Part shown: piece by piece, positions 11,347 through 51,898 of the stretch
How the letters are laid out: every line of letters begins with the position of its first letter
Numbering within the stretch: the first letter of the stretch is position 1
DNA from: Purpureocillium takamizusanense
Lineage: Eukaryota > Ascomycota > Sordariomycetes > Hypocreales > Ophiocordycipitaceae
DNA length: 64,000 nt
NCBI RefSeq assembly: GCF_022605165.1
Contig: NC_063069.1
Coordinates: forward strand, 3,596,001-3,660,000
Direction of reading: 5' to 3'
Translations under genes and position numbers: made by a program
The notes under the pieces: model-generated
Told to the model about the DNA's origin: nothing
Database searches by the model: none
What the model saw: the letters and a program-made list of their open reading frames with translations, nothing else

Positions 11347-14300
11347 ATGCCCAGCTTGACAGAACAGCCACAAGAGAGGTTGTTGGCCATGCCAAGCGTC
11401 GCGAACGGGGCAGATCGCGGCAATGATGCCGTAACTTCAGCGTACTCCAGCAGTGGAAATAAGATGGCGGAACCCATCGCCATAGTTGGCATGGCCATGC
11501 GACTTCCAGGAAACGTCCGTACCGGCAACGAATTCTGGCGGATGCTGGTTGAAAAGCGGAATGGGCTGTGCGACGTGCCTCAAGATCGATACAACGTCAA
11601 TGGTTTTCACGACCCATCAGGCAAGCCCTCAACGTTCCGCATGAACAAAGGCTACTTCCTGCAAGACGTTGATATTGCCCAATTTGATACCTCCTTCTTC
11701 TCGTTGTCCAAAGCGGAGCTAGAGCGTCTCGACCCACAGCAACGGCAACTTCTCGAGGTTGCATACGAATGCATGGAAGATGCAGGCGCGACCTCGTGGC
11801 GAGGTAGCAATACAGGTTGCTATGTCGGTGTATTTGGCGACGATTGGCAGGACCTCAACGCCAAGGAAACCCTCCACAAGGGTGGATATCGGGTTACAGG
11901 ATACGACGATTTTGTTCTAGGAAACCGAATCTCGTACGAATTCGACCTACACGGCCCCAGGTGAGATTAAAGATTTTTTCTGTTTTAGGAAAAAAAACTC
12001 AAGAACAGTTAGAACTAACATATTCCAGCATGACCGTCAAGACCGGATGCTCGTCATCTCTAGTGTGTTTAGACATGGCTTGCGAGGCAATACGGAAAGG
12101 CGACTGCGACGGCTCGTTGGTTTGCGGTACAGGGTTAATATTTTCTCCAACTATGACGCTCGCGCTTAGCGACCAAGGCGTGCTCTCCCCTTCAGGCATT
12201 TGCAAGACATTTGATGCCTCTGCAGATGGATACGGACGTGGCGAGGCTGTCAACGCCATTTACATCAAAAGACTGAGCCAGGCTATCGAAGATGGCGATT
12301 CGATCCGAGCGGTCGTTCGCGGAACTAGTGTGAATTGCGACGGGCGCACGCAGGCCATGCTGACGCCCAGCCCGACAGCCCAGGAGTCGCTCATCCGCCG
12401 TGCATACGAGCAGGCAGGGATCCAGGACATGTCGCGGACTGCCATGGTGGAGTGCCATGGCACAGGAACCAGTGTCGGCGACCCGCTGGAAGCCACCGCG
12501 GTCGCCAACTGCTTTGGGGATCAGGGAGTATACATTACTTCTGTAAGTCTGACAAAGTCTCAACAAACCTTGGCATGCTCCTAATCTTCGCACACAGGTC
12601 AAACCCAATGTCGGGCATTCAGAAGGAGCCGCGGGTCTCACTAGTCTCATCAAGGCTGTCCTGGCAATTGAGCACCGCCTAATACCGCCGAATATTTTCT
12701 TCAAGTCGCCCAACCCAGCCAGTGAGTTTCCAGGGGACAAGTCCATTGCTCGCCAGTGTGGCGCGTTGACCAGCCTCCAGTCCCCTTCTCGAGATGCAAA
12801 CTGCGCGTCCCCGTCGAGACAGAGGAATGGCCAGCAGGCCGTGCTGAGCGAGTGAGCGTCAACTCATTCGGAATCGGCGGCGTCAATGCTCACGTAGGTA
12901 TCGGAGTCCATACATGTGGCATTGTGCTGATTAGTTTAGGTGATTGTCGAATCCCTGCAAGAGTACCATAATCACGACCAGTTATCGCCCAACGGTTCCA
13001 TCAGTTCTGCGTCTCCGGCCGGCGACATGACGCCGACAGACAGCGATAGTCTCGAGGATGTCGGCAGTAGTGAGTCCGGCTCAGTCGACGTTTTTCCAAA
13101 TAGCAACGACGTCCAAAGCAATGGCCACTCCGACCCCGACGAACCAATGGGACACAAAGGCAGCGGGTCTAAGCTGCAGGGCCATGAAACGCGCTCAACT
13201 GATTCTTCAATAACTCGAAGCCAGAATGGCTATGGTCTCAGCCAAGTCGAGTATCCGGAGCGCCCGCACCTCCTCCTATTCTCGGCCAACAGCGAACCGG
13301 GTCTTAAAGATGTGATCAAGACTTATCAGGAATTCCTTCCCACAAGCCATCCCTCTCTGACAGATGTAGCCTACACCCTGGCTCTTCGACGAGATCACAA
13401 GACCCACCGCGCCTTTGCGATCGCTGGGAGCAAGTCGTCACTGGAGCTGTCGCAGCTGGAGACGGTCAAAGCACCGCCAAGGATTGCATGGATTTTTACC
13501 GGGCAAGGTGCACAATGGCCACAAATGGGAGCGGATCTCATCGACACCAACGCTGTATTCCAGGGGACGATCCGCGGCCTGGACGCTTTCTTGGCCGGAC
13601 TACCCAGCCCTCCGCCTTGGACCATTGAGGATGAGCTGCGAAAGACGGCTGAGAACAGTCGTGTTCAGAAGGCGGAATTCGGCCATCCCCTATCCATAGC
13701 CGTTCAAATTGGCCTCATCGACGTTTTGAAGTCGTGGGGTCTCAGGCCAGATTCGGTGCTTGGCCATTCTTCAGGCGAGATGGCCGCTGCATATGCCAGC
13801 GGCTCCATCACTGCCAAAGCCGCCATGGCAGCTGCCACGTTCCGCGGCACCACCAGCACCGGCGGCACAGCTGAGAAACGAGGTTCAATGGCGGCTATTG
13901 GTCTTGGCGCGCATGAAATGGCACCCTATATGGAGCCTGGTGTTGTGATCGCCTGTGAGAATAGCCAGTGCAGTGTCACCATTTCTGGAGATTCTGAGCA
14001 GGTTGAAAAGGTGGTTCAAAGCGTGAAGGCCCAGCGAGAGGGTGTCCTGGCGCGGTTTTTGCGTGTTGAGAAGGCCTTCCACTCCCGTGAGTAGCCAACC
14101 CATAAACCAACCTTCTGACTAGTCACTGACCCTTGCCCAGACCATATGCTCGAGTACGGGCCTCTGTACGAGGAGCACTTGCAGCCGTTCGTCAACAGTA
14201 GCTCTCCGATAATACCATTCTACTCATCTGTTACCGGTAAGAGGTTGGCTGACGATGGCTGCCTTGGACCCGCCTACTGGCGCAGGAACATGGAGAGCCC

Positions 14301-17300
14301 AGTCTTGTTTAACACTGCCCTGCGATCCGCCATGAGTGCGCAGGAGGGTCGTCTTGTGCTCATTGAGATTGGACCTCACCCAGCCCTCAAAGGCCCTGTC
14401 GGTCAAATTTTGCGAGACATGGGACGTTCGGCAGACGTTCACGTTGGAACGTTGCATCGTGACAAGGGCTGCGACGAGAGTCTGCTCCAGCTTGCTGGCA
14501 AGCTGTTCCAGCAAGACGTCCCTGTGGACTTCTCGCATGTGCTGTTGCCAAGTGGCCGCCATGTTGCAAACCTGCCTCGGTACCCATGGAAGCGAGACAA
14601 CAGTTACTGGGCCGAGTCGCGCATGACGCGGGAGTGGAGGTTCCGGGAGCATGGCCCCCACGAGCTACTTGGATCTCGTGTTATCGAGGTCTCCAACGAG
14701 CCATGTTGGAGAACTAAACTTGCCCTCGATGATGTCTCCTGGCTTTCTGGCCATGAGGTGGGTGGCCAAGTCATTTTCCCCGGTGCGGGCTACATCTCCA
14801 TGGTAGGTGAAGCTATTCGACAGCTCCATGGCGAATTGGCGTACGGCCTCAAGAATGTCAGCATAAAAGCCGGCTTGGTTCTGGAACACGGCAAAACGGT
14901 TGAGATTGTGACAAATTTGTCTGCGGTTGCCACAGACTCGTCTGACGAAGCGTCATGGTATACGTTTAGCATCAGCTCCTACGACGGCACGAAATGGGTC
15001 AAGCATTGCGTCGGTGAAGCAAGGCCGTCTGTCGACAAGGCAGTGCAACTCAGCGTTCAGTCACCCAAAGATTTGGCCAGAACCGTCGATGGTGATGAGT
15101 GGTACAACATACTCAATCGTGTTGGGTTCAACTACACAGGCCTGTTTCGTGGCCTGCACGGTATTACTGCGGAGCCGGGAGACAATCGGTCGGCAGCGTC
15201 TGTGCCGTCGCTGGGTCCATCGCACACCGGGAAGTTCGCGATGCATCCCGCCGTCATGGATCAATGCTTTCAGCTCTTCACCGTTGCCGCATACCGCGGG
15301 CTGGGCAGGAACTGTAAGAACATTGCTGTCCCAACTTTTATCGAAGAGATCATTGTGCGTCCCACGACACATGATCTGCGCGTTGGGGCAACCATCCACA
15401 CTCTGGAGCGCGGCTCATTCGTGGGTGATCTTGTCGCCGAACAGTCTGGCCAGTTGCAGCTCTCACTCAAAGGGTTCAAGGCATCTGCATTGACAAGAAG
15501 TGATGATGAAGATGAGAGATTGCCCTTGATCACTCGCTTGGAATGGAGACCCCACGCTCACTTCGTGTCGTTGGCGGATCACTTGCATCCTCGACCGCAC
15601 ATCCCCCGGGAATGGCCTCTTTTCGAAGAGATGATGCTTCTATGCGCCATTGATCACCTCGAAACCATAAAACTGACCGAGGAGACCCAACCGCATCTGC
15701 GCAAGTTCTTTTCGTGGATGCAAGATCAAGTCGACAAGTACCAGTCTGGGGACAACCTGTTTATTGCGAATGACCGAGGGTTGTTGGAGCTCACCAAGGC
15801 TCAACGACTTGCACGAATTGCAGACATTGCCGCGGATGGCGAAAAGTCTCAGTACCCAGCCTTTGGCATCGCTATCCACCGGCTCTTCCAAGCGGCCGAG
15901 TCAATTTTCAGTGGCGAGACACATCCGTTGCATGTTCTAATGAAGGACGACGTTCTCACGCAGTTCTATGCTGTTGGCGACGAGCTCAATTACGCCAGTG
16001 CCCTGCGCGTCTTGGGGCACACCAACCCCAGACTGAGGATCCTTGAAGTTGGTGCAGGCACCGGCGGTACGACGGTCAAGGTTCTCAAGGCGCTCACGTC
16101 GTCCTCTGGGGAGAGATTGTACAGCAGCTACACCTACACTGACATCTCTGCTGGCTTCATGGCCTCGGCAAAGGAGCGCTTCGCTGGAGCTGACGGCCTG
16201 CAATATGCCACTCTAGACATCTCACAGAACCCATCAGAACAAGGCTACCAGATGGGAAGCTACGATTTGATCATCGGTTCAAATGTGAGTTGCCCTGCGT
16301 GCAGGTCATATATGGCAGGGTCGCACTGGAGCTGACACAAGGACCAGGTTGTTCACGCCACCCCTCACCTGAATGTCTCTCTTTCCCACCTCCGTAGCTT
16401 GCTGAGCCCCGGTGGGAAGCTCTTCTTACAGGAGCTATGCCCTGGTACGCAGTCCATTATCTTCTGAAATCTCCGAAGTCAACGCTGACAAGTCCTAGAT
16501 GCGAAATATGTCAACTATGTTATGGTGAGATACAACTCACGCTCCAAGTAACACGAAAGTACTTACGCAGAACAGGGTTTCTTGCCCGGCTGGTGGCTGG
16601 GTGAAAGTGACAACAGACCCGATGAGCCGTATATCTCCCCAGAAAGATGGGCCGAAGAGATGTTAGCGGCCGGCTTTGCCAAACCGGAGGCTATGGTGGT
16701 CGACGGTGCCACGCCTTATCAGCAGAGCGCAGGTATCATAGCCTCGCCAGCCTATGAGACACCAAGACCCCCGAAAGTATCGTTGCTTTCTCACAGCATC
16801 GATGGGGCGTACGTCACAGAAGCTAAGCTAGTTCTTGAAGACCTGGGGTTCACTGTTGATGTCATTACATTTGGACAAGAGCTGCCGAGCCACGATGTCA
16901 TCAGTTTGCTGGACCTTCAGACTTTCACTGTCCATGATCTTGATGATGCCTCGTTTCGGGCACTAGTCGCGCAGCTCCAATCGCTTGACTTGGACTCCAA
17001 GATAATCTGGGCCACTCGCTCTGCGCAGGTCGCCTGTACGGACCCAAGGACTGCCATGAGCCTTGGTCTTACCAGAACCGCTCGTAGCGAGCTGTCTACC
17101 AAGTTGTTCACGGTCGAGATTGACGACAAGACCGACCGTTTGGTTGCTGCGAGATGCCTCGCGGATATTCTGCTGAGACGTCATAGCCCGCAATTAGACG
17201 TGGAGTCCATGGATCCGGACTGGGAGTATGCTATCATCGATGGCCAGGTTCTCGTTCCAAGAATGCACTGGCAGACCATGGGAGATGCCTTCGAGCAAAT

Positions 17301-19696
17301 CGACGACGAGAGTTCTCAGCCTACGGCCAAGCAGCTCACTGTCAAGACTCCGGGATTGCTGCATACTATGGGCTGGAGCGAATCCGAGCGTGTACCTCTC
17401 AAAGAGGGACAGGTAACGGTTCAAACGAGAGCGATTGGGCTTAACTTCAGAGTAAGCTCTCCAGAATTGTCCATTCTTTACGCAAGGCTTACCATTCTAT
17501 AGGATGTTCTCATCGCCCTCGGTATTCTGGACAATAGCACGCGCGAAATCGGCCTCGAAGGCTCGGGCATGGTGACTGAAGTAGGCCCCGGAGTTGATAA
17601 GCTTCGGCCGGGTGATCGTGTCATATACATGTCAAGCGGCTGCTTCACTACGCACATTACATTGTCTCAAACGCTCTGCGTGAAGCTCGACGATGGCTTG
17701 ACCTTTGAACAAGGCGCGGCACTGCCCTGTGTCTATGCTACAGCTGCAATGGCTCTCGTGGACAAAGCCAACCTACAGCCGGGACAGGTTAGATATATAC
17801 TCCTTTCTGAAACCTGTGTGTGTTTGCGTGCGCGCCAGAGCTGACTTATATCTCCTCAGACGATTCTCATTCACTCAGCCTGTGGTGGCGTTGGGCTTGC
17901 TGCGATTCAGATCGCTCAAATGCTTGGTGCCGAGGTATTCTGCACCGTGGGTAACGAAGACAAAGTCCGCTACCTCATGGACAACCATCACATCCGGCGC
18001 AACCGCATATTTAACTCACGCGATACATCGTTTTTACGGGATGTGATGGCTGTGACAAGCAACAAAGGTGTTGACGTCGTGCTAAACTCTCTCTCGGGAG
18101 AACTTCTTCATGCGTCGTGGCGATGTGTCGCGGAGTTTGGAACCATGATCGAGATTGGCAAGCGGGACTTCCGCCGCAGAGCCAAGCTCTCCATGGAGGC
18201 ATTTGAGGCCAATCGCACATTTGTCGGTCTCGACCTTTGGCAGGTATCTCAGGTTCGCCCCGAGCAAGTTGCAAGGTACGGTTCTTGTTCTGTCGCATTC
18301 CAATTCACCTCGCGCATTGTGACACATATGGCTAACTTTGTACAGGCTCTTGGAGCGTTGCATCAAGTGGATGCAGGAGGGATTGATCAAGCCTGGCGTC
18401 ATCGCAAAGGTGTGGGATGCCCAACAGGTTCAAGACGCGTTTCGCTTCATGCAGGGTGGGCGGCACATCGGCAAGATCATTGTTAGGATGCCAGTGGAAT
18501 CCAGCGTTCTCGAGTCGACCAAGGAGCGCCCTTTGCCACACCTTCGCCCTGACCGGAGCTATCTTCTCGTCGGTGGCTTGGGAGGCCTCGGTCGCTCTAT
18601 CGCAACTTGGATGGTTGAGAATGGCGCACGCCATCTGGTCTTCCTCTCGCGGTCTGCTCAACCAGGCCCTCATCTGGAAAGGTTCGTGGGTGAACTCACC
18701 GCCCAGGGATGTGAAGTACAGCTGGTCTCAGGCAGCGTCAGCAGCTTGGACGACGTAAAGCAGGCGGTGAACAGTGCATCGAAGCCGATCGCCGGTGTCA
18801 TGAACTTCTCCATGGTCTTGCGAGACATTTCGCTGTCGGACATGAGTTTTGCCGACTGGACGACTGCAGTCTCACCCAAGGTCGAGGGCACATGGAACCT
18901 TCACCATGCCATCACGTCCGAGCTGGATTTCTTCATCTTGTGTTCCTCATACAGTGGTATTGTTGGTCAATGGGGACAGGCGAACTATGCCGCAGCCAAC
19001 ACCTTCCTGGACGCGTTCGTCCAATATCGTCACCACCAAGGATTAGCGGCGTCCGTAATCGACATCGGCGTTATGGGCGAAGTGGGATTCGTGTCAAAGA
19101 ACCAGGACATCTTAGGCCTTTTCCAGAAATCCGGCATGCGAATATTAAAGGAGCAGGATCTTCTTGATGCCATGAACTTGGCCATTCTACGGTCCAAACC
19201 TGCTCAGACCCAAAATCCTAATGGGGGGTACGGCAGCCCTGGACAGATTTTGCTTGGATTGGTCACGAGTGTGCCTATCGCCTCGCCCAACAACCGCGTC
19301 GTCTGGAAGAACGATATTCGCATGAGCATCTACCACAACATCAATGGCGGAAGGGACTCGGCATCTGCGGTGGCGACGGAGCTTGACGACATCACGACGC
19401 TGTTGAAGTCGGCTGCGTCCGACCCATCGGTGCTTCAAGATAAGGAGAGCACTGTCATCATTGCGACGGCCATTGCGTCTGCGTTGGCCAATTTTCTGAT
19501 CAAAGAAGACGGCAGCATCAAATTGGACGACTCTCCGGAACATGCAGGCTTGGACTCTCTAGTCGCGATGGAGCTTCGGAATTGGATACGGCAGAGATTC
19601 GGGGTGGACACAACGGTGATGACCATTGTGCAGAGTACGTCGATTATGAGTTTGGGAGATTATATTAGGGAAGCTCTGGTCAAGCGCTCACGGTGA
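11347..19696 (+). CDS. Highly reducing type I polyketide synthase (KS-AT-DH-cMT-ER-KR-ACP)
   Basis: Iterative cytosolic PKS of about 2568 aa. Exons: 11347-11960, 12029-12542, 12598-12721, 12781-12893, 12940-14086, 14141-16284, 16348-16444, 16499-16524, 16576-17451, 17503-17787, 17860-18275 and 18346-19696; all phases agree. Active sites appear intact: KS Cys212 (in KTGCSSS, not the common TACSSS), His348 (ECHGTGT) and His383 (NVGHSEG); AT Ser732 (GHSSGE); DH His1042 (SGHEV) and Asp1211; C-methyltransferase SAM loop GAGTGG at 1475-1480; ER nucleotide loop GGVGLAA near 1989; KR Rossmann loop GGLGGLG near 2195 and Tyr2333; ACP Ser2523 (GLDSL). The protein ends just after the ACP, with no thioesterase, reductase or condensation domain, so product release needs a separate protein. 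Candidates in the window are the thioesterase-fold protein at 28578 and the LovD-like enzyme at 50480. It should make a methylated, largely reduced chain. Confidence 0.95.
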
Positions 19697-38965: not shown

Positions 38966-40484
38966 CTACCCGCGCCAGACAGCCTCGAACGTCATGAAAG
39001 TACCAGCAACCTCATCCCGAATAATCTCAAAGCGCTCATCCGCTGCCTTGAAGAGATCCGTCATCTTTTTCGCGGCCTGCTTGGTGTGACCAAACAGCGA
39101 GAGCGTCTTGAGACTGATTACATTGCTATACTTCAGCAGCGAGCGAGGCATGACCGCGGCAGCTTCGGGGCCAACGTCCACCATCAGATCTAAGACGAGA
39201 ACACGAGCCCCGGGACGAAGAGCGGGCACCAGTGCCTGGATAATCTTGACGATGTCCTTGTTGGACCAGTCGTAAAACACCCACTTGAACAGATAAATGT
39301 CTGCCTGAATCGGCTGAGGGGTGAAGAAGTCATGAGCAAGGAAAGAGACGCGCTTCTTGAGCTCGTCAGAGATATAGCCATCGTCAAACTTTGCCTGACA
39401 ACTGGGAAGATCCTGGACGATGATCTTGAGATCGGGGAACTTTTCAGCAAGAGGCACGTCGTCGTGGCCGCCTGAGCCGCCGAGCTGGTAGATAGTCAGC
39501 CACTTGTTCGTCAAGCCTAGATCCGGATAACTTACATCGACCACGGTGGCTTTGCCAGCACCAGCCCAATCAAGGGCTTCAAGGAGGGCACTTTCTGCAC
39601 CCATCTTCTCCTTGGCCAGGCGCAGCGATTCGACCATATCTCTCTGTCGCCAGCCTTTTCGCTCACCTTCACCGTCCCGGTCGAGCCAGTCATAGTAATC
39701 CTTGAATTGGCCAAGAGGGCCGCCCTTATAGAGCATGCCAAATGGTGTCTCGCTGATCTCATTGGTGAGCTTGTCCTTGCCAAGAAAGTTCTTCTCAAGC
39801 GCTCGGTTGAGGATGGAAAGCGGCCCCCCAAGACCATCAATGGTGAGGTTAACGATGATCCGCAGAGTGGGATCCTTTATCATCGCGGCAGATCGTGACG
39901 TGTGGCGGATGCGCGAGTTGGGGTCACCAATCGTCACAGGCTCAAAGATGCGGTTGCAGAAAGCGTAGGGCAGGATGGCTTCAACCGCCTCCTGCGGAAG
40001 GCGGACAGCCTTGGCGATCTCGGCAAAAGAGGCGTCGCCGTCCAGCGGGACCGCATCCCAAAAGTTGAAGTAATTGAGGATGTTGAGAGTGGCCGAATCA
40101 GCCATCGCCTACAGATCTCGCCATCAGCCTGACTGCCTTGTGGGAATGCTACTCATTTCATGGCGAACGCACGTTCTGAGCGACATCAGTGATGCTCTGA
40201 GAGGCCCCATGCACAAGAAAGGTCAAGTCATTGAGAAGATCGAGCAGTGCGAATCGCTCAGTCACTGTCTCGGGAGGGAGCTTCGAGAAATCCTCCTGAC
40301 ATTCTGCGGCAAAAGTAGGGTCGGGGATGTCATTCTCATCCATGCGCTTAATGAGCTGCTGAGAACTCTCAATGAGCTTCTCCAGTCTCTCCTTTAGGGA
40401 CACGGGAGGGGACGCAGGGACGGCGGGAGCGCCGTTGGTGTCGGCCTGCGACGCGGCAATGTCGTATTGAACGTTTTCTCCCAT
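38966..40484 (-). CDS. COMT-type O-methyltransferase-like protein with His-to-Tyr change
   Basis: SAM-dependent class-I fold protein of about 467 aa. Exons: 40484-40173, 40108-39536 and 39484-38966. The second intron (39535-39485, GTAAGT...CAG) is 51 nt and stays in frame, so an unspliced reading inserts 17 residues; removal restores VVDLGGSGGHDD, the SAM-binding loop. The N-terminal part is the usual helical dimerisation/winged-helix region (DSATLNILNYF). At the position of the catalytic base of plant-type COMTs (HDW) the protein has FYDW (Tyr at about 366), so classical base-catalysed O-methylation is doubtful unless Tyr or another residue serves. OMT-like proteins of fungal polyketide clusters can be pericyclases (LepI type), which is an alternative here. 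It converges with the ABC transporter. An upstream Met at 40535 is possible. Confidence 0.88.
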
Positions 40485-42724: not shown

Positions 42725-43354
42725 CTATGAGCTTGCTGTGACTTGTCTCTCGATGGCCGTCCTCCAGCTCTCCAAACTCCGCACTTCCAGGCCTTCGACT
42801 TTGGCCTCATCATCCCACACACGCAGCTGGCACATCTCGCGACACCAGGCGCCCGATCCGAACTCGTCCTTCTCCGCCCCGCTCATGGGGCCACCTTGGT
42901 AGGCCAAGCTCTTCTTGCTCGCGTCCGACAGCTTGTCGTAGTACTCCTCGTCCACGGCGCAGAGATATCGTTTCGCAGCAACGTGTGACTCGACCAAACG
43001 CGCCACCTTTGGTGCAAAGCCCAGTGCCAGCAGGAATTTGGCTCCAAGCGTCTCGTGGCCGACCCTCCCGACGCTGCTGTTCGTTGTCTGTCCGCCGAGG
43101 TTCTGCGCGCGACCGCCGGTCAGGGACCAGAGATCCTTTGCCGGTGCGAACTGGCCAACATCGTGAAGAAGGGCCGCAACCTGGGTGGCCTCGTCGACGG
43201 GCGGTGAGGCGAGCGCGGCTTGGTTGGCGCACTGGAGCGAATGTTGTAATTGGGAGATGGGTTCGCCAATGTACGGCGTGTTTTCCGACGCTTCCAAAAC
43301 ACTAATGATGTATTCGGCAACAGAAGCCGGAGATAATGACGCGGGAACGACCAT
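42725..43354 (-). CDS. PhnZ-like HD-domain oxygenase
   Basis: About 209 aa from the Met at 43354 (the frame is open to a Met at 43543, but conservation starts here). PhnZ is a mixed-valent diiron HD-domain enzyme that cleaves the C-P bond of 2-amino-1-hydroxyethylphosphonate to glycine and phosphate. Signature elements appear in order: YIGEPISQLQHSLQCA (Tyr, Glu and His of the PhnZ N-terminus), LLHDVGQ (HD motif), GHETLGAKFL, ESHVAAKRYL (metal His and Lys) and RVWDDEAK (C-terminal Asp). The one visible departure is HDVGQ where PhnZ has HDxGH: a Gln in place of a substrate-contacting His. It is co-directional with the PhnY*-like gene 0.85 kb upstream. The family is well supported; the exact substrate is inferred and may differ from 2-AEP, for example an N-methylated analogue as in TmpB. 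Confidence 0.8.
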   Translation of the reverse strand: MVVPASLSPASVAEYIISVLEASENTPYIGEPISQLQHSLQCANQAALASPPVDEATQVAALLHDVGQFAPAKDLWSLTGGRAQNLGGQTTNSSVGRVGHETLGAKFLLALGFAPKVARLVESHVAAKRYLCAVDEEYYDKLSDASKKSLAYQGGPMSGAEKDEFGSGAWCREMCQLRVWDDEAKVEGLEVRSLESWRTAIERQVTASS

Positions 43355-44199
43355 GTTGAGAGATGTAGCGGTTTGGGCTTCGTGTCCTTTCGGGTGTCCA
43401 GTGAGGCAAGAAACATGCAATATGAGGATGACGAGTTTGGTCAGCTTGACAACAGCTGGCGCACGTGGCCGTCGGATTTGCGCAGAGAACGGTGATGCTC
43501 CAGCACCGCTGCACAGGGCAACAATCCATGGAAATCCCAGCAACGTCTATGTCTTGTAAATCTTTGGCCGTTTAACCGTCGGACCGCTGCATGGCCACGC
43601 CTCCAAAACGGCTCCAGCGTAGCGGCCAGCTGTCCCACCAGGGCGGCCGTCATCTTCGCACGTGGGCACATCCGTTCGTGTAAAGCATAAGCCTCCGGCG
43701 ACTAAACTAAACTTGAGTTTGACCCGACAAGCGACGCAACGTTCGCGTGGAGACTGTGCCATTAGTACAAGTCCACAACCGTCCCATCCAAAGGGAAGAG
43801 CCGGAAACGTGAGGACTGAAAAGAAAAATTCACGATTGGGCTGTTGAGGGCCTGCCGATTGCAACGTCGGTGCGAAGTCCGACTTTCTTGGCCTCGACTT
43901 TTGTGCGGGGCAAGGGCGGCAAGGAACGAAACAGGGGGGGTGATAAACCAAAAAGACGGCACCGAGCATGAACCGGGGCACTTGTCGCCCTCGGTTGCAG
44001 GCAGGCTTGCAGCGACATGGCTGTCGGTGTGAAGGCCGAGGCCACGGCGCCTTGCCTCTTGTGGTAGACGACTTGCAGATCCGATGGACCGGACTGGCTT
44101 CTGTCACACTCGCAGGGTTTGAGCAAAGGGCCTTGAGTGGCAGCTGTTCGCTGTTGTCTACCTGCAACTATCGCTAGCTACGATGGCAACGCAGACTGT
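43355..44199. promoter_or_regulatory. Upstream region of PhnZ-like gene with two CACGTG boxes
   Basis: CACGTG occurs at 43462-43467 and 43659-43664, 108 and 305 bp upstream of the start codon, each in the context GCACGTGG. CACGTG is the core site of the Pho4/NUC-1-type phosphate-starvation regulators of fungi. The 206-codon minus-strand frame here has no recognisable motif. Confidence 0.5.
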
Positions 44200-45202
44200 C
44201 TAGAATGCAACCTGATGACCCGCCTCCAAACTCAGCATTGGCGAGCCAAAGCCATACGTGAATGCACCCTTCTCGTACGACTCTCCTTGTTTCCGCATGT
44301 GCGTGGCCGGCCACTCCTTCTTCCTGTCCTCATAGTAGCCCTTGTGCATGTCACCCTCACTTGCGCAGTTGTACGTGGCATAGATGGCCTTGCGATCGGC
44401 GCTGCTCGTGTTCGGCCCACTACGGTGCGCAAGATACGACGTAAAGATGAGCAATTGGCCTGCAAAACAGCTGGTCAGAAACGAGCCATTGTGCGTGCAG
44501 GAGAGGGCGTGTCCATTACCTGCTTCCAGCTCGACAGGCGCCCACGTCTGTGAATCTACCCAGCTCTGCTCAATGCAGTTGGTGGTCTTGTTGATGGGAA
44601 CCTGCATCTCGTGGCTGGCATCGACGACCTCGAGCCCGCCGTTTCGGAGATTGGACGGGTCCACGCTCAGGAGGATCGTTAGGTGCTTCACATCCTTGAT
44701 GTGTGTGTAGGCGACGGCGTCAATGTGAGGCGCAAAGCCGCCTGCTGCTGTCAGATACATCGCGGCTATACACGCGAGCCGGACACCAAATGCGATGAGA
44801 CATACCGCTTCCCGACAGCTTGTAATTGATCTTCTCCTTAAACAAGAGCATGGGCTCTCCAGCAAGATCGTTCAGCAGCCCGAGGAGCTTCTCTCCTCTG
44901 AGCAGATGGTTGAAGCCCGTATGCCCGTCGACAAAGTTTTCCGTACGGCACAAGACACGCTCACCCTTGTCATTGACCTCCTGTTACCAGGGTTAGAACA
45001 TGCCAAGTGTTCGCCCAAGACAAAGGCACGCGAGCCGGCAACGTACCTCATAGGGCATAAAGTCAGACTCCTCGGTGGGCTTGTAATCATGAACCTGCTG
45101 CGCCCAGCTTTGCAGATTCGTCACCTCCTCTGGCGAGAGGAAGTCACGGACAATGAGATAGCCATTCTTGTGGAAGAAGGCGCTCTGCTCGGAGGTGACC
45201 AT
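44200..45202 (-). CDS. PhyH-family Fe(II)/2-oxoglutarate dioxygenase (PhnY*-like)
   Basis: About 290 aa. Exons: 45202-45047, 44980-44806 and 44741-44200; phases agree, and the chosen second acceptor gives the conserved GSGGFAPHIDA. The N-terminus KNGYLIVRDFLSPEEV is typical of PhyH dioxygenases. RVLCRTENFVDGH, LLFKEKINYKL, PHIDA (first Fe His and Asp) and AHRSGPN (second Fe His, then Arg for 2-oxoglutarate) follow. The pattern and length resemble PhnY*, which hydroxylates 2-aminoethylphosphonate at C1 to give the PhnZ substrate. Its neighbours, a PhnZ-like enzyme and a GIT1-type permease, support a phosphonate role. It could act on another small zwitterion, but the pairing makes phosphonate the leading idea. 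Confidence 0.85.
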
Positions 45203-46108
45203 TGTAACGGTACGGGAGGAGGCGTCAATGTGACTGCAGCAAAAAAGTCTGGCTTTGTGAGAGCAAAGCAGGGCCCTGTTCGACTATTGGAACACGAGAC
45301 AAGTACGCACTCGTTGATTTGACAGGTTGCAAGTTGAGGCGACCGGGTTTTAATACGCATGTCATCCAGATGGACGGCTCCCATCCGACGGGTTCCACCG
45401 CGCATCTTGACGATGCCATGTACTTCGTAACTTACAAGCTCGTTGCCGCCCGACATGTTACATCAGCCCTTGATGAATGCCCAGTCCTGGATCTGCATTT
45501 AGACATCGGCGGAGGACCCCGCGACGCGCGACCGTTTCCTCTTCTTGGGACCCCCCCCTGGCCGGCCGCCCCTTCACACGCTGCTCCAACTGTCACCGTC
45601 CTGCGGCGCTACGGGGACCCGGCCCTCTACGGGCCCCGCCTCCGCAAGCCTCCCGTAAATCACAGCTCCGGACGGGCCCACGTGTGCGGTTTCCGACGGG
45701 ACTTCGGCACCCCGCGCGCACACAATGGCGGAAGATGTGCGTCTTCTTGCTGGAATCTATACGGAACTGGCCGTAAACGAGCTTGACTCCCCCTACAGAC
45801 ATGGCTGCAAATATTTCATACGGGGGCAACCGCCAATGATCAGCCGGAGTAGGCTCTGAGACGGCCCTGGCTTGAGATGCGGCATCGACGCACGTGGCCA
45901 GGCGCGCGTGCATTCCAGGCTCACACTCTGGGACTCGGCACAAGAGCTGTTTGGGGAGCCTAGATATTATGGTCTACCTGTCTGAGAATCTGTAAATAGA
46001 AAAGAGCATCCTGAGTCGTCTGGAGTGCAACCAGTTCAATTCCTTCCTTCAGTCGTGGGACAGGACTGTATCATCTCTCTCGTCATATTTGGGGCCGGCA
46101 GTTCCACC
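45203..46108. promoter_or_regulatory. Divergent promoter of PhnY*-like and permease genes, two CACGTG boxes
   Basis: This 0.9-kb stretch lies between two head-to-head start codons. CACGTG lies at 45679-45684, midway between them, and at 45891-45896, 213 bp upstream of the permease ATG. Open frames here are compositionally odd (GC-rich, Arg/Pro-rich) and have no family motif. Co-induction of the two genes by phosphate limitation is inferred. Confidence 0.55.
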
Positions 46109-47789
46109 ATGGCAATCACTGAGGTCGACAACAAAATGGTGGTGGATAAGCAGGACGGCTCACGCGATGAGGGCGTCGTGAAAGACTCGTCGGATGTCGT
46201 TGTTGAGACAACCGCGCAAGTCGCGCCCCAGGTCAACTGGGCCTCATCCATCACCATGGTCATGGTGGGTGGTATGGCACTATTCTCGGACGGATACAAT
46301 GCCGCGATTGTCGGTTTCATGAATCCGGTCTTGTCACGGCTTTATCCCGACGACTACACCTCGTCCATCAAGACAAGCGTTTCTAACGCCTTCTTGATTG
46401 GCGAGGTATTCGGAATGCTCTTCTTCGGTTGGGCGATTGACAAGTTGGGCCGACGCAGTGGCATCGTTTGGGCCACCATTTTCCTGGTCCTGGGCATCAT
46501 TCTCGCGACCGCCTCTCACGGGACCACCAACACGGGCATGTTTTGGATGCTCATTATTGGACGCGGCGTCGCTGGGTTTGGTGCGGGAGGTAACGAAGAA
46601 CTCCGATACTTCGAGGCGTGCGACAATGGACTTGGCTGACGAATTGCCAGGCGAGTATCCTACCTGTGCGACAAGCACTACCGAAGCCAGCGACGAGAAT
46701 GCCCCTATCCGACGTCGACGAGGGATCCTCACGGCCGTTGCTACGGACTTTGCGATTGACCTTGGATTCGTTGTTGCTGGTATTGTTGCCATCATAGTTC
46801 TCGTGGCATATCACGAACGCCTTGGCGATGGCTTGTGGCGCGTCAACTTTGGCATTGGCATCACATTGCCGGTTGTTCTGCTCTTCTTCCGTCTGCGCCT
46901 TGTCAACTCGACCCAATACCACAAACACGCCATGAAAAAGCAGATCCCCTATGGTCTCGTAATTCGACGCTATTGGAAACCGATGCTGGGTACCTCTCTT
47001 GCGTGGTTCATGTACGACTTTGTGGTAAGGATTGCACTGATTGACCCGGGTGTTATCCTTCATCGAGGCGCTTACAAGCCTGATATAGACATATCCCTTC
47101 GGAATCTTCGGCTCAACAATCCTCGACACGCTCAACCCGAGCGGCACGTTGCTCCAGACTATTGGCTACGGCACAGTGCTCAATTGTTTCCTCCTGCCAG
47201 GAACTATTATTGGCGGATTGCTCATGGATCGGATCGGCCGCAAGCAGACCATGACTCTTGGATTCGTTCTATGGTCGCTGCTTGCCTTCATCATCGGTGG
47301 AGCCCTGAAGCCCATTCTCTCCGTCTTCCCGCTCTTTGTTGTGTTGTATGGCATCTTCAACACGCTCGGAGAAATGGGTCCTGGTGTAAGTCGACAAACC
47401 GCAGCAGTACGATGGCGCTCGGCTAATACGTGCCCTCTTTCTAGGTCGCGACCTTCCTCTGTGCTGCCGAATCTTTTCCCACTCCGGTGCGCGGCCACTT
47501 CGTCGGCCTCGCCGCTGCCGTAGGCAAGGCAGGTGCTGCCATCGGAACTCAGGTGTTCAACCCGATTCAGAACTCGTTCCACGACGATGAGAAAGGCGTG
47601 CAGGGGGTCTTCTTAATTGGCGCTGCATTTGCACTGACTGGTGCTGTCATCTCATGGTTCCTCATCCCCGACCAAGAAAAGGACCTTGAGAGTGAGGACG
47701 TTCGCTTCCGGCGCTACCTGGAGGAGCATGGATATCACGGCGTGTTCGGAGAAGATGTCAAGCCCACCATCTCCGCGAGTACGGCTTAG
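46109..47789 (+). CDS. MFS permease of the GIT1/PHS type (phosphate or organophosphate:H+ symporter)
   Basis: Twelve-helix transporter of about 498 aa. Exons: 46109-46589, 46651-47024, 47089-47385 and 47445-47789. It resembles yeast Git1 (glycerophosphoinositol permease): an ALFSDGYNAA first helix, a NAFLIGEVFGMLFFG segment, IDKLGRRSG, ASHGTTNTGMFWML, and GRGVAGFGAGGEYPT, which forms across the first intron. In the second half MDRIGRKQT and FNTLGEMGPGVATFL are seen. The N- and C-termini are polar and cytosolic. Git1 relatives carry glycerophosphodiesters or phosphate, so import of a phosphonate or phosphate ester is a good guess given the PhnY*/PhnZ-like neighbours. The substrate is not proved by sequence. 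Confidence 0.88.
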
Positions 47790-47897: not shown

Positions 47898-48957
47898 CTA
47901 GCCGTTCGATCGTCCTGGTACATCGGGCTTGAAGTGTTTCATCAGTGTTTTGTTTCCCAGCCTCTCCACCTTCCTCCTAGCCCTAGTTTCTTCTCTTCTA
48001 GCCTTGTCCAATTGCTTCCTTCTCGTGGCCAAGACTGAGCGGATCTCATGACTTGGCAGGAGCGCCAGCGTGTTTTGATCCCGAACGCTCAGCTGAGAAA
48101 GCCGTGCGGCGAGAATAGCTGAGCTCGACTCATCTTTCGCAGCAACATCCTGACCTACTCCTCTCGGCTGCTCCGAACCGAGCTGGGCATTTCTCGACCC
48201 GTCAGATACTTCTTGTTGGGTGGATCGCGGCCTGGCTTGCGCCTCGCGTAACGCTCTGTGGCCGAGAAGCTTGCCTGATGGAAGCCGCAAGGACGCTTCA
48301 TCTGGTCGTGCGAGATCTGCCAAGTCATGGTATTGCGACTCAGGAAGCTCATAGAAATCTTCCGTATCTGCGGAAATGTCGAACCGGCAGTGTCCCTTGG
48401 CCGTCATATGCTGCTGAATGCCTTGAACTGTGCTGCGCCGCGTCGTGCACAGGATGCATTCGCGGTATCCGAAGATGACGACATGGAGGTACCAGATCAA
48501 GGTTTGTAGATCGACAGCCAGGCAGCTTTGATACGGCACAATGAAGCTGTGCACCGAAGCCATGTGGGCGACATTGCTCTCGAACCCGTCACTCTCATCA
48601 CCGCAGAACAGGCATTGTCGCGGATTGAACGATGGAGCTGAATCTTGGCCTTCTGTCTCGTCCGCGTCGCTTTCCGTCTGACTGTCAGTAGACTGATCCT
48701 CCGCCGACCATGGTTCTATAGCTGCCACACTGTCGTCTGTTCCGTGGCTTCGGGGAGTCGGCACGGCGGCTCCCAGAGTCGCCACGCGACACTGCAATTT
48801 GTAGACGCTGTGATGCTTTGTCAGTCAGAGTCCAGAAAAAGGATGTGCTCTTCTACACGTACTGCGAGTCGCTTTTTGCGTGATGCCGAAATTCCGCAGA
48901 CGTTGCGAGCGGAGTATCGCAGAGCCTGCAATGAAAGGCAGCTGGCGCTCTGTCCAT
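47898..48957 (-). CDS. REI1/REH1-like C2H2 zinc-finger protein
   Basis: About 334 aa. Exon 1 is 48957-48863, the intron is 48862-48808 (55 nt), and exon 2 is 48807-47898. Splicing completes the first finger: FHCRLCDTPLATSAEFRHH, then KSDSHVYKL. Two more zinc-finger blocks follow: CLFCGDESDGFESNVAHM and ECILCTTRRSTVQGIQQHM then KGHCRF. This three-part layout is that of Rei1/Reh1, cytosolic factors in late 60S ribosome maturation. The C-terminus is basic and helical (RRKVERLGNKTLMKHF). The protein is shorter than yeast Rei1 (393 aa) and the finger spacing departs from consensus, so it may be a diverged second paralog. It converges with the permease gene (108 bp apart). Confidence 0.82.
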
Positions 48958-50479
48958 GGTCGCGTCTAAAATCTTTTCCGGGCTACAAGCTTAGACTTGC
49001 CGTCAATCCAGCTGGGCGTCGCGCTGAGCGGCTTGGTAAGAGTTTGGGATGGGCGCTGGTTGACCAGCAGGCTGCTCCGATGCGATATGGCCCCTAATGT
49101 ACGAATTTTGACATTTGGAACCTCGCGTCTTGTTCCGCCTAAATCCGGGTATCCGGATGGAAACTCCTTGGTGCCAAGTTTCGTTGCTCACATGAGCTCA
49201 CTACCCCACGATGCAGGGCGCAGACTGATGCTGAACTGCTGAAGCTAAACCACAAGACAAGCTACCATTGGCCCACCAGCGAAACCAGAGCTAAATAATA
49301 GGCGATCAGTGACTCACGCATGGATGGCTCACTCTGGCGACTCTTGAATCAGCATCTTTTCTTTAAATTGCTCAGCACAGAGACTCCATTCCAGGCGGTT
49401 TGCGCCAATGTACACGTTGGGATCCTTGCGGGCAGGCTATTAATCTGGCCCTTGTCGAATACTGCATCCTGCGGTCGCGATGGTTGTGGCAGGACCCCAT
49501 TGATGCTATCGCGAAGAACATTTGATGCTGTTGGCTTCACATGCCTACCCAGTAGTTCCCCGACGGTCGCCAAATGTTGAACCCGTAACTTCTGCATTAT
49601 CCTGAGAGGTATGCTTTCGATATTTGTCAACTAAAAATTATCAAGGTGATCTCCAAGTCGCCCCCTTTCCCTAGGCTCATGCGGGGCCATGTCACATCTC
49701 TTTGTCTTAGCACGGGGTCAACGCCTTACCAAGCGAGGACATCGCATTTCGCCACCGTGGCTGATCTACTCATCAAGCAGCCAGAAGCCTCAAAGATACA
49801 ACTATATGCGCCCTGACGTGAGAATAAGAAAGTAAACGTGCATGCGCCGTACAGGGATCTGGAAATGAATGATATCCCAAAGCAAGAGTGGCAAGTGCCC
49901 GTCGTGCAAATGATCCCGCATTTGTTTCGCTAGACTTCTCACCGAGGGCCCCCAAGGCATGCAACCAGCCGAGAGAGGCGATCGCCTTATGCACCAGCAA
50001 GTCTTCCGGGCACTTATTGATTGTTGCGTTTCAGCTCGTGCGTCATGGCTCCGCCCTGCTGAGGCCGTCGAGGGTGACAGGCGGCCGAGATATTAGGTTG
50101 GAACTGCTTCCTCCGCGACTGCGAGCTGGACCGGAGGCTAGACAGAGTGACACAGGTGGTAGCACAACTGATTTAGTCGCTTTAGCGAGGATCATCCAAG
50201 TCACTGCTGGAGCGATATGGGCTTGCTCCGCAGTGCCGAGACTGATGCTTCCTTTCCTGTGGAGCGACATCGTCAAGTCGTGCAACCACACACCCTATAC
50301 GCGACTTCTCCCTTGGTCATAATAATTCCAGGTGTCGAGACTCGGTGGCTCTCGCTATATAAAGCAATAAAAGTACGTATGCTGCCGTCAAAGGACTTTT
50401 AACATCCGTATCAAAAACTCGTACTTCTGTGTGCGATTGTAATCATCCCTTGTGTCAATTCGACAGTACTACGCCCGAA
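48958..50479. other. Intergenic, no gene recognised
   Basis: 1.5 kb lying between two divergent genes. Short frames on both strands lack motifs. It should contain the promoters of the zinc-finger gene and the beta-lactamase-fold gene. Confidence 0.5.
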
Positions 50480-51898
50480 ATGAAGTTCTCCGAAAAGGCC
50501 ACCCAGGAGCTTCAAGCTGTTATGCACGATGCTGTCTCCCGGCCAGAGGGTATACCAGGCGCGACTGTGGTCGTCGTCGGCACCGATGGCACTGAGCTCT
50601 TCGCCAAGTCAGCTGGCAAACGAGGCGTTTCGGGCACTGAGGACATGGCGTTGGAGCACATTTTCTGGATTGCCTCGTGCACGAAACTACTAACTGGAAT
50701 TGCCTGCCTGCAGCAGGTTGAACGTGGCTCTCTGAAGCTGGATGACAGTGACCAACTTGAGAGTTTTTGCCCTGAGCTCAAAGACTTCAAAGTGTTCAAC
50801 AAAAATGGGGGCCTGGAGCCCAAAAGAAAAGGCATTACACTCCGAATGCTTCTCACGCACACGGCTGGATTTGGGTATCCATTCTTCAACGAGAAGCTAC
50901 GAGATTGGTGCATTTCCGAGGGCGCGCAGATGTCTGCTGCCAGTTTGTCAGACATGAACGCGCCGTTGTTGTTTCAACCAGGAGAAGGCTGGGAATACGG
51001 GGTATCGTCGAGTACTTTGAGCTATCCTGAGAGAAATGTATCGCTGACAAGTATAGATTAACATTGACTGGGCAGGTATTGCATTGGAGAGAGCCACGGG
51101 TACCAAGCTCAACGACTACATCCAGACCCATATCTGCCAGCCTCTGGGTTTAGAGAACGTGACCATGTTTCCGACGTCGGAAATGAAGGAAAAGCTCGCG
51201 TACATGCATCAACGCTCGCATGATGGGACTTATTTGGCTCGTGACCATTTCTATGAGCAACCACTCAAGGCTCAGACCAAGGAACAACAAGATGCCATAT
51301 TTCACAGCGGCGGGGCAGGCATGTTTGCCAAGCCACAGGAGTTCTGTCGTAAGATAAACAAATTGAACATCTTCAACAACATTGCTGCTTACATTATACT
51401 CTGCCAGGTGTCCTGTCCGTTCTGCTGAACGGTGGAATCTGTCCCAAAACAGGGGCCCAGATCCTCAGAAAGGCCTCCGTGGACGACATGTTTCGCAACT
51501 CCGTCCCTCAATTTCCGCAATTTGGCCGCCAGGGCATTCCCGCTGCAATTCCGGAACTGACGCATCCTGTTCCGGACTTGTACCCGACAGAAGGCAACTC
51601 GCCACAAGGATTTGGTCTCACTATCATGCTTACAGGCGGTGCCACTGGTCGGTCTGACAGTACTGGGTGGTGGGCTGGACTCCCGAACCTATTCTGGTGG
51701 GTAGATCGTGAAAAGGGTGTTGCGGGGATGATCTGCACGCAGATTCTGCCATTCGCTGATCCCGATGTCTTGAGTCTTTGGGGTAGAGTTGAGGCGGGTG
51801 TGTACAAGGCTCTGGCGGCAGCAGAAGAACAGGGTTTTTGGAATGAGACAGGCTTCGTGCAAAGACTTGCCAAGGACTATGATGGACGGGGCACTTAG
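50480..51898 (+). CDS. Serine beta-lactamase-fold esterase/acyltransferase (LovD/EstB-like)
   Basis: About 434 aa. Exons: 50480-51001, 51057-51348 and 51408-51898. The class-C beta-lactamase-type SxxK motif is SCTK in IASCTKLLTG (nucleophilic Ser and general-base Lys). The catalytic Tyr is in GWEYGINIDWAG, which forms across the first intron. HTAGFGYPF, HSGGAGMFA and the C-terminal GWWAGLPNLFWW segments match fungal LovD-like proteins. The length is near LovD (about 413 aa). LovD transfers acyl groups from a PKS or thioester to a polyketide alcohol; others in the family are esterases. It lies 31 kb from the PKS, so pairing is uncertain. An in-frame Met at 50429 would add 17 residues. Confidence 0.87.

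Follow-up and report, generated by a model that had tools for sequence, protein, structure and literature searches.

A 64,000-nucleotide stretch of the genome of the ascomycete Purpureocillium takamizusanense, hereafter termed the window, carries a trio of neighboring genes that probably constitutes a fungal phosphonate-scavenging module. The genes encode a PhyH-type 2-oxoglutarate/Fe(II) dioxygenase resembling PhnY*, an HD-domain protein resembling the oxygenase PhnZ, and a permease of the major facilitator superfamily (MFS), and they would jointly operate an unfused PhnY*/PhnZ pathway. The enzyme class of the oxygenase pair we hold with good confidence, the scheme as a whole with somewhat less. 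A sequence-only reading of the window had already proposed a phosphonate-use module at this site. The proposal stands as far as a PhnZ-type HD protein, a PhnY*-like PhyH protein, and a permease of the phosphate-transporter group are concerned, while the cut-offs of the curated protein families are missed, a point that we weigh below.

The window lies on contig C2 of a 35.6 Mb assembly in 14 contigs, and all three genes are intact within positions 42725-47789, as the sequence-only reading had placed them. The HD gene (43354-42725, minus strand) is a single exon of 209 amino acids that includes a YIGE loop and the full H..HD..H..H..D ligand set. It is preceded in tandem, at a distance of 845 bp, by the PhyH gene (45202-44200, minus strand), in which four exons (45202-45047, 44980-44806, 44747-44520, and 44459-44200) encode 272 amino acids. 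The permease gene (46109-47789, plus strand; exons 46109-46589, 46651-47024, 47089-47385, and 47445-47789; 498 amino acids) is divergent from the PhyH gene and 906 bp away from it. The six introns of the PhyH and permease genes measure 58-66 bp and have GT..AG ends, and every one contains a CTRAY candidate branch site. Since the PhyH stop lies at 44200 and the HD start at 43354, these are two separate open reading frames. A fusion of the two through splicing was considered and rejected, as the intron required would measure about 850 bp, against 58-66 bp for those present, and both frames look complete. The PhnY*-like and PhnZ-like motifs quoted earlier are present in the translated proteins, and database E values put the likeness of the trio's proteins to known families far beyond chance.

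In a PDB sequence search, the HD protein matched PhnZ of the marine bacterium HF130 (4n6w, 4mlm, and 4n71; E about 7e-34) and TmpB (6npa; E 8e-22), and up to E 1 no distinct sequence besides these two was retrieved. The AlphaFold model (mean pLDDT, the predicted local distance difference test, 89.3; 19 rows) returned PhnZ at Foldseek ranks 1-7, with a best match of E 2e-13, TMt 0.93, and 40% identity, followed by TmpB at ranks 8-10; human MIOX appeared at rank 13 with E 0.11, and on these grounds a MIOX identity was ruled out. All 11 PhnZ active-site positions checked are kept, among them the six di-iron ligands (H34, H58, D59, H80, H104, and D161 in PhnZ numbering). K108, S126, and R158, which we take to bind the phosphonate, are also retained, and the YxxE loop (Y24/E27) reads YIGE, identical to PhnZ. 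According to PMC8177086, the H..HD..H..H..D ligands and a YxxE loop whose glutamate approaches the substrate amine characterize PhnZ and TmpB. At three other HD loci of the same genome, the frames have neither the YxxE loop nor the HxxxKR motif. In a tree of 103 HD rows, the fungal protein joins PhnZ and two bacterial rows with moderate support (92/60), outside the TmpB clade (99/98) and apart from the rows resembling the Gimesia maris (Gm) protein. Together with the missed TmpB cut-off and a partner that is not of the TmpA type, this placement rules out TmpB. The earlier call of a PhnZ-like HD oxygenase is thus borne out by PDB matches, active-site positions, and predicted fold, and the protein would be expected to work like PhnZ.

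The PhyH protein belongs to a diverse family. It matched Pfam PhyH with 93 bits (E 3e-26), and its nearest NCBIfam model was the methylphosphonate hydroxylase GmPhnY* (NF052437; 156 bits, E 1e-45), followed at a distance by a chlorinating enzyme (30 bits); at thresholds up to E 0.1, the TmpA model gave no hit. PDB matches were weak, ectoine hydroxylase being the first at E 2e-5. The protein contains H118, D120, and H198 in an HxD...H arrangement together with R209, which from PhyH-family roles are presumably the iron triad and the 2-oxoglutarate-binding arginine.

One tie of this protein to PhnY* is a rule of genomic pairing in bacteria. With the GmPhnY* model and a threshold of E 1e-20, a search of sampled genomes found matches in 16 of 396 actinobacterial, 16 of 392 planctomycete, and 5 of 398 pseudomonadote genomes. 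Among 43 bacterial loci from these and further selected genomes, inspected with flanks of about 1.5 kb, a PhnZ-type HD gene adjoined the PhyH gene at 23/23 loci scoring above 200 bits on NF052437 and at 0/20 lower-scoring loci. One of these loci is a fragment (L118), two are shortened by contig ends (L132 and L142), and one HD gene is common to L110 and L119. The genomes of L097 and L098 had been chosen through their HD-PhyH pair; with these two loci set aside, the higher-scoring group still shows the neighbor at 21/21 loci. The fungal PhyH gene likewise adjoins a PhnZ-type HD gene in the window. Where L110 and L119 meet (G129:C1 4566015-4567705), an actinobacterial genome has two divergent PhnY*-like genes next to just one HD gene; in Rhodococcus, covered by a plasmid search, the PhyH and HD genes overlap, and viral contigs searched for PhyH yielded no relative.

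Phylogeny and signature residues point in the same direction. The fungal PhyH protein falls into a 28-row clade (88/94) that holds all 24 HD-linked rows, i.e., 23 bacterial ones and the fungus, along with four unlinked rows. In a second tree, from which eight long or distant rows were left out, it lies on a 30-row side with 24 linked and six unlinked rows (99/96). Rows with in-frame stops (the L056 HD and L129 PhyH proteins) were dropped, and the duplicates L097, L098, and L110 were left out of the trees and of the loop count given below. Residues E101, A123, Y124, and Y228 each occur in 24/24 HD-linked rows, the fungus included, and in 6/21, 6/21, 2/21, and 6/21 unlinked rows, respectively. 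From its position in the trees, its signature residues, and the pairing seen in bacteria, we infer that the fungal protein is a PhnY*-type hydroxylase. The proposed PhnY*-like identity is thereby supported on these three counts and falls short on the NF052437 cut-off. Phylogeny had been named as a test that might refute the module, and it did not do so: the HD protein sits beside PhnZ with moderate support and outside the TmpB clade, and the PhyH protein groups with HD-linked relatives, although its branch is long and its clade also takes in some unlinked rows. One of those unlinked rows in the 28-row clade comes from a plasmid stretch in Azospirillum (L103, 3842-5581), where the PhyH match lies inside an aminotransferase-annotated gene and aepY, encoding phosphonopyruvate decarboxylase, is nearby.

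On the HD side, we kept 80 of 299 bacterial relatives. The PhyH side was sampled by the genome search described above because only 2/80 HD loci had a PhyH neighbor. Neighbors were clustered, with 13 of the 80 loci missing. For L019, L086, and the loci with no TmpA, PhyH, or FAD/HAD partner, 79 neighbor frames were compared and 21/100 left out. Four of the 79 match PhnM, four PhnD, three PhnE, and two PhnX, and therefore the HD family keeps phosphonate company. The partner labels denote likeness to one protein each; these label proteins match NF049936 (TmpA; 341 bits, cut-off 400), TIGR03364 (over its cut-off), and TIGR03351 (PhnX-like; 188 bits, cut-off 218.9). Across the 103 HD rows, the YxxE loop is found in all three named rows (fungus, PhnZ, and TmpB), in 26/27 TmpA-linked, 19/21 FAD/HAD-linked, and 21/29 other rows. 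The 23 PhyH-linked bacterial rows have a shorter YxE loop in 19 cases and YxxE in four, three of which read YYDE and are Gm-like. Most PhyH-linked HD proteins of the sampled Actinomycetota show this loop, one residue shorter than that of PhnZ and TmpB (L075, L092, L100, most of L104-L117, and L119). Because PhyH-linked bacterial rows are mostly YxE, the fungal pair can be said to join a PhyH partner to a PhnZ-type loop. We take this loop type as favoring an aminophosphonate substrate; it is no proof of one, because GmPhnZ also cleaves (R)-hydroxy-2-aminoethylphosphonate besides hydroxymethylphosphonate.

The permease matched Pfam Sugar_tr (E 7e-42), the phosphate transporter 7sp5 in the PDB (E 5e-27), and, as its best NCBIfam model, the phosphate:H+ symporter TIGR00887 (143 bits, under the cut-off of 610). 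The permease is, by these matches, of the phosphate-transporter type within the MFS, and the earlier identification as a GIT1-type permease holds as far as this group, which includes Pho84 and GIT1. Frames 41-50% identical to it exist at three further places in the genome. The window contains 15 copies of the hexamer CACGTG, four of which fall within the two stretches separating the genes of the trio: at 43462 and 43659, each GCACGTGG, upstream of the HD gene (43355..44199), and at 45679 and 45891 in the stretch from which the PhyH and permease genes diverge (45203..46108). These stretches amount to 1,751 bp, or 2.7% of the window (binomial P 0.0006); only 0.2% of 2,000 shuffles of them reach four copies, and CACGTG is the commonest of the 64 palindromic hexamers there. 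The DNA affinity purification sequencing (DAP-seq) consensus of NUC-1 from Neurospora is GCACGTG (PMC12506109). Three of the four promoter sites and nine of the 15 window sites fit this longer motif (3/9 inside the trio stretches, P 0.0015). The enrichment hints at a shared PHO-type control of the trio.

The analysis establishes the structures of the genes, their homologies, a predicted fold, the residues of the active site, the pairing rule in sampled bacteria, and the site enrichment; beyond these, we infer activity, substrate, transport role, and regulation as follows. The permease would import a phosphonate. The PhyH protein, as a PhnY*-type Fe(II)/2-oxoglutarate hydroxylase, would place an R-hydroxyl group on the carbon adjoining phosphorus, and the PhnZ-type HD protein, as a putative mixed-valent di-iron oxygenase, would cleave the C-P bond using O2, releasing inorganic phosphate together with a carboxylate. 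The substrate is most likely an aminophosphonate; with the favored 2-aminoethylphosphonate (2-AEP), the products would be glycine and phosphate. Through the promoter CACGTG sites, the genes may respond to the phosphate-starvation factor NUC-1/Pho4.

Several observations weigh against this reading. The HD protein scores 161.4 bits on TIGR03276 (cut-off 214.6), 118.6 bits on NF049941 (TmpB, cut-off 300), and 112 bits on NF052439 (GmPhnZ1, hydroxymethylphosphonate; cut-off 300), and because every score is under the curated cut-off, we assign it to none of the three families. The PhyH protein misses the NF052437 cut-off of 500, and its 156 bits rank it with the top-scoring unlinked proteins (146-167), below linked ones, which reach at least 203. 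It forms a long branch, its clade includes the four or six unlinked rows mentioned above, and the trees were built without HF130 PhnY*, an experimentally tested TmpA, or PhoF. The scarcity of PhyH neighbors among the kept HD relatives adds to this list. As for regulation, CACGTG also serves other basic helix-loop-helix factors, and the P values are optimistic because the sites were noticed by eye before they were counted. Genes for the related permeases, none of them a known PHO gene, have no such site in the stretch examined (contig C8), one about 1 kb upstream (C6), or one inside the gene (C10).

A second locus in the same genome bears on where a phosphonate might come from. On contig C1, at about 1195500-1199806 (L144 and L166), a phosphoenolpyruvate (PEP) mutase-like gene and a phosphonopyruvate decarboxylase gene lie divergently, about 1.7 kb apart. 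The former scores 223 bits on TIGR02320 (cut-off 319.6), matches PDB 5unc at E 1e-28, and carries an EDK..NS motif with four extra residues; the latter exceeds the TIGR03297 cut-off (323 versus 312.5 bits), and an MFS-like frame lies beyond it. PhnW yielded weak matches only, the best at 39.6 bits. A PEP-mutase-domain cluster has been put forward hypothetically for another fungus, Phaeoacremonium minimum (PMC6099105). Because the PEP-mutase-like gene lies beside a phosphonopyruvate decarboxylase gene, the organism may also make phosphonates, and may thus both make and break them. We tentatively raise the possibility of a single fungus that builds phosphonates with PEP mutase and phosphonopyruvate decarboxylase and, by means of a distinct PhnY*/PhnZ pair that is unfused, under PHO control, and equipped with its own permease, dismantles its own or environmental ones for phosphate.

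Elsewhere in the window, polyketide synthase domains (acyltransferase, dehydratase, ketoreductase, and carrier) at 12940-19693 and an O-methyltransferase frame at 38969-40108 lie upstream of the trio, frames matching Pfam zf-C2H2_2 (47901-48824) and Beta-lactamase (50363-51058) lie downstream, and five P450 frames are present.

Which phosphonate the pair would act on is a question that the HD protein alone cannot settle, because GmPhnZ cleaves both hydroxymethylphosphonate and (R)-hydroxy-2-AEP; the PhnY* step is the one described as highly specific (PMC10574752). The closest named model for the PhyH protein being that of a methylphosphonate hydroxylase, the pair might oxidize methylphosphonate or another small phosphonate rather than 2-AEP, like its counterpart in Gimesia maris. 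We regard this as unlikely, since the fungal HD protein shares its YxxE spacing with PhnZ and TmpB, as opposed to the YxE of most PhyH-linked bacterial rows, and does not group with the Gm-like YYDE rows.

It is similarly improbable that the pair recycles phosphate from, or tailors, a phosphonate made by the organism itself. The proximity of the PEP-mutase-like and decarboxylase genes would fit such a role, as would the bacterial PhyH protein of the same clade encoded on a plasmid near aepY. However, the two loci lie on different contigs (C1, at 1.2 Mb, and C2, which holds the window), the PEP-mutase-like gene misses its cut-off and PhnW matches are weak, the 7.8 kb examined around the PEP-mutase-like gene contain no CACGTG, and a permease adjoining the pair suits uptake. 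Least probable is that the oxygenases act on a non-phosphonate compound and either adjoin a phosphate-type permease fortuitously or form part of the upstream polyketide cluster. PhyH proteins are diverse, and the polyketide synthase domains and O-methyltransferase are in the same window, but the PhnZ loop, ligands, and fold, the PhyH-HD pairing rule, and the CACGTG enrichment speak against this reading, and the polyketide synthase domains located are more than 20 kb away. Membership in that cluster, for which position is the sole support, was rejected. Phosphonate scavenging by an unfused PhnY*/PhnZ pair remains the reading we prefer.

Set against known systems, the trio combines familiar parts in a different arrangement. 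It resembles HF130 PhnY*/PhnZ in the HD protein, whose model matches PhnZ at 40% identity and which keeps the active-site positions checked and the YIGE loop, and differs in that the PhyH gene has introns and the HD protein a longer, low-confidence loop around residues 75-98. Like GmPhnY*/GmPhnZ1 of Gimesia maris, which acts on methylphosphonate, it pairs PhyH and HD genes and its PhyH protein matches the GmPhnY* model, yet below the cut-off, and the HD protein differs in loop type and tree position. With TmpA/TmpB it shares the HD fold and YxxE loop, whereas its first enzyme is a PhyH protein without a TmpA model match and its HD protein falls outside the supported TmpB clade. The permease resembles the phosphate-transporter MFS group in its Pfam and PDB matches and departs from it in the low TIGR00887 score. 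The C-P bond-cleaving chemistry itself has precedents in bacteria and in a single fungal fusion enzyme. The sequence-only reading knew of no characterized fungal version, a statement that is contradicted by PhoF of Fonsecaea multimorphosa, a fused PhnY-PhnZ protein described in PMC10574752 as acting on 2-AEP and 3-aminopropylphosphonate. In accessible literature, PhoF is the only fungal oxidative C-P-cleaving enzyme described, and the literature searched, which covered few subscription papers, yielded no fungal PhnY/PhnZ pair in unfused form. With its enzymes encoded separately, a linked permease, and PHO-type sites, such a version would point to a pathway that fungi operate as a regulated nutrient module; it would also shed light on the origin of PhoF and extend the ways in which eukaryotes break down phosphonates. 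Jointly with the PEP-mutase-like gene and its neighbor, it opens phosphonate cycling to testing within one organism. PhoF and the trio are both fungal and join the same two enzyme types in one pathway for which 2-AEP is the known or favored substrate, but PhoF is one fused protein, whereas the trio differs from it by a split pair of genes, an adjacent permease, and PHO-type sites.

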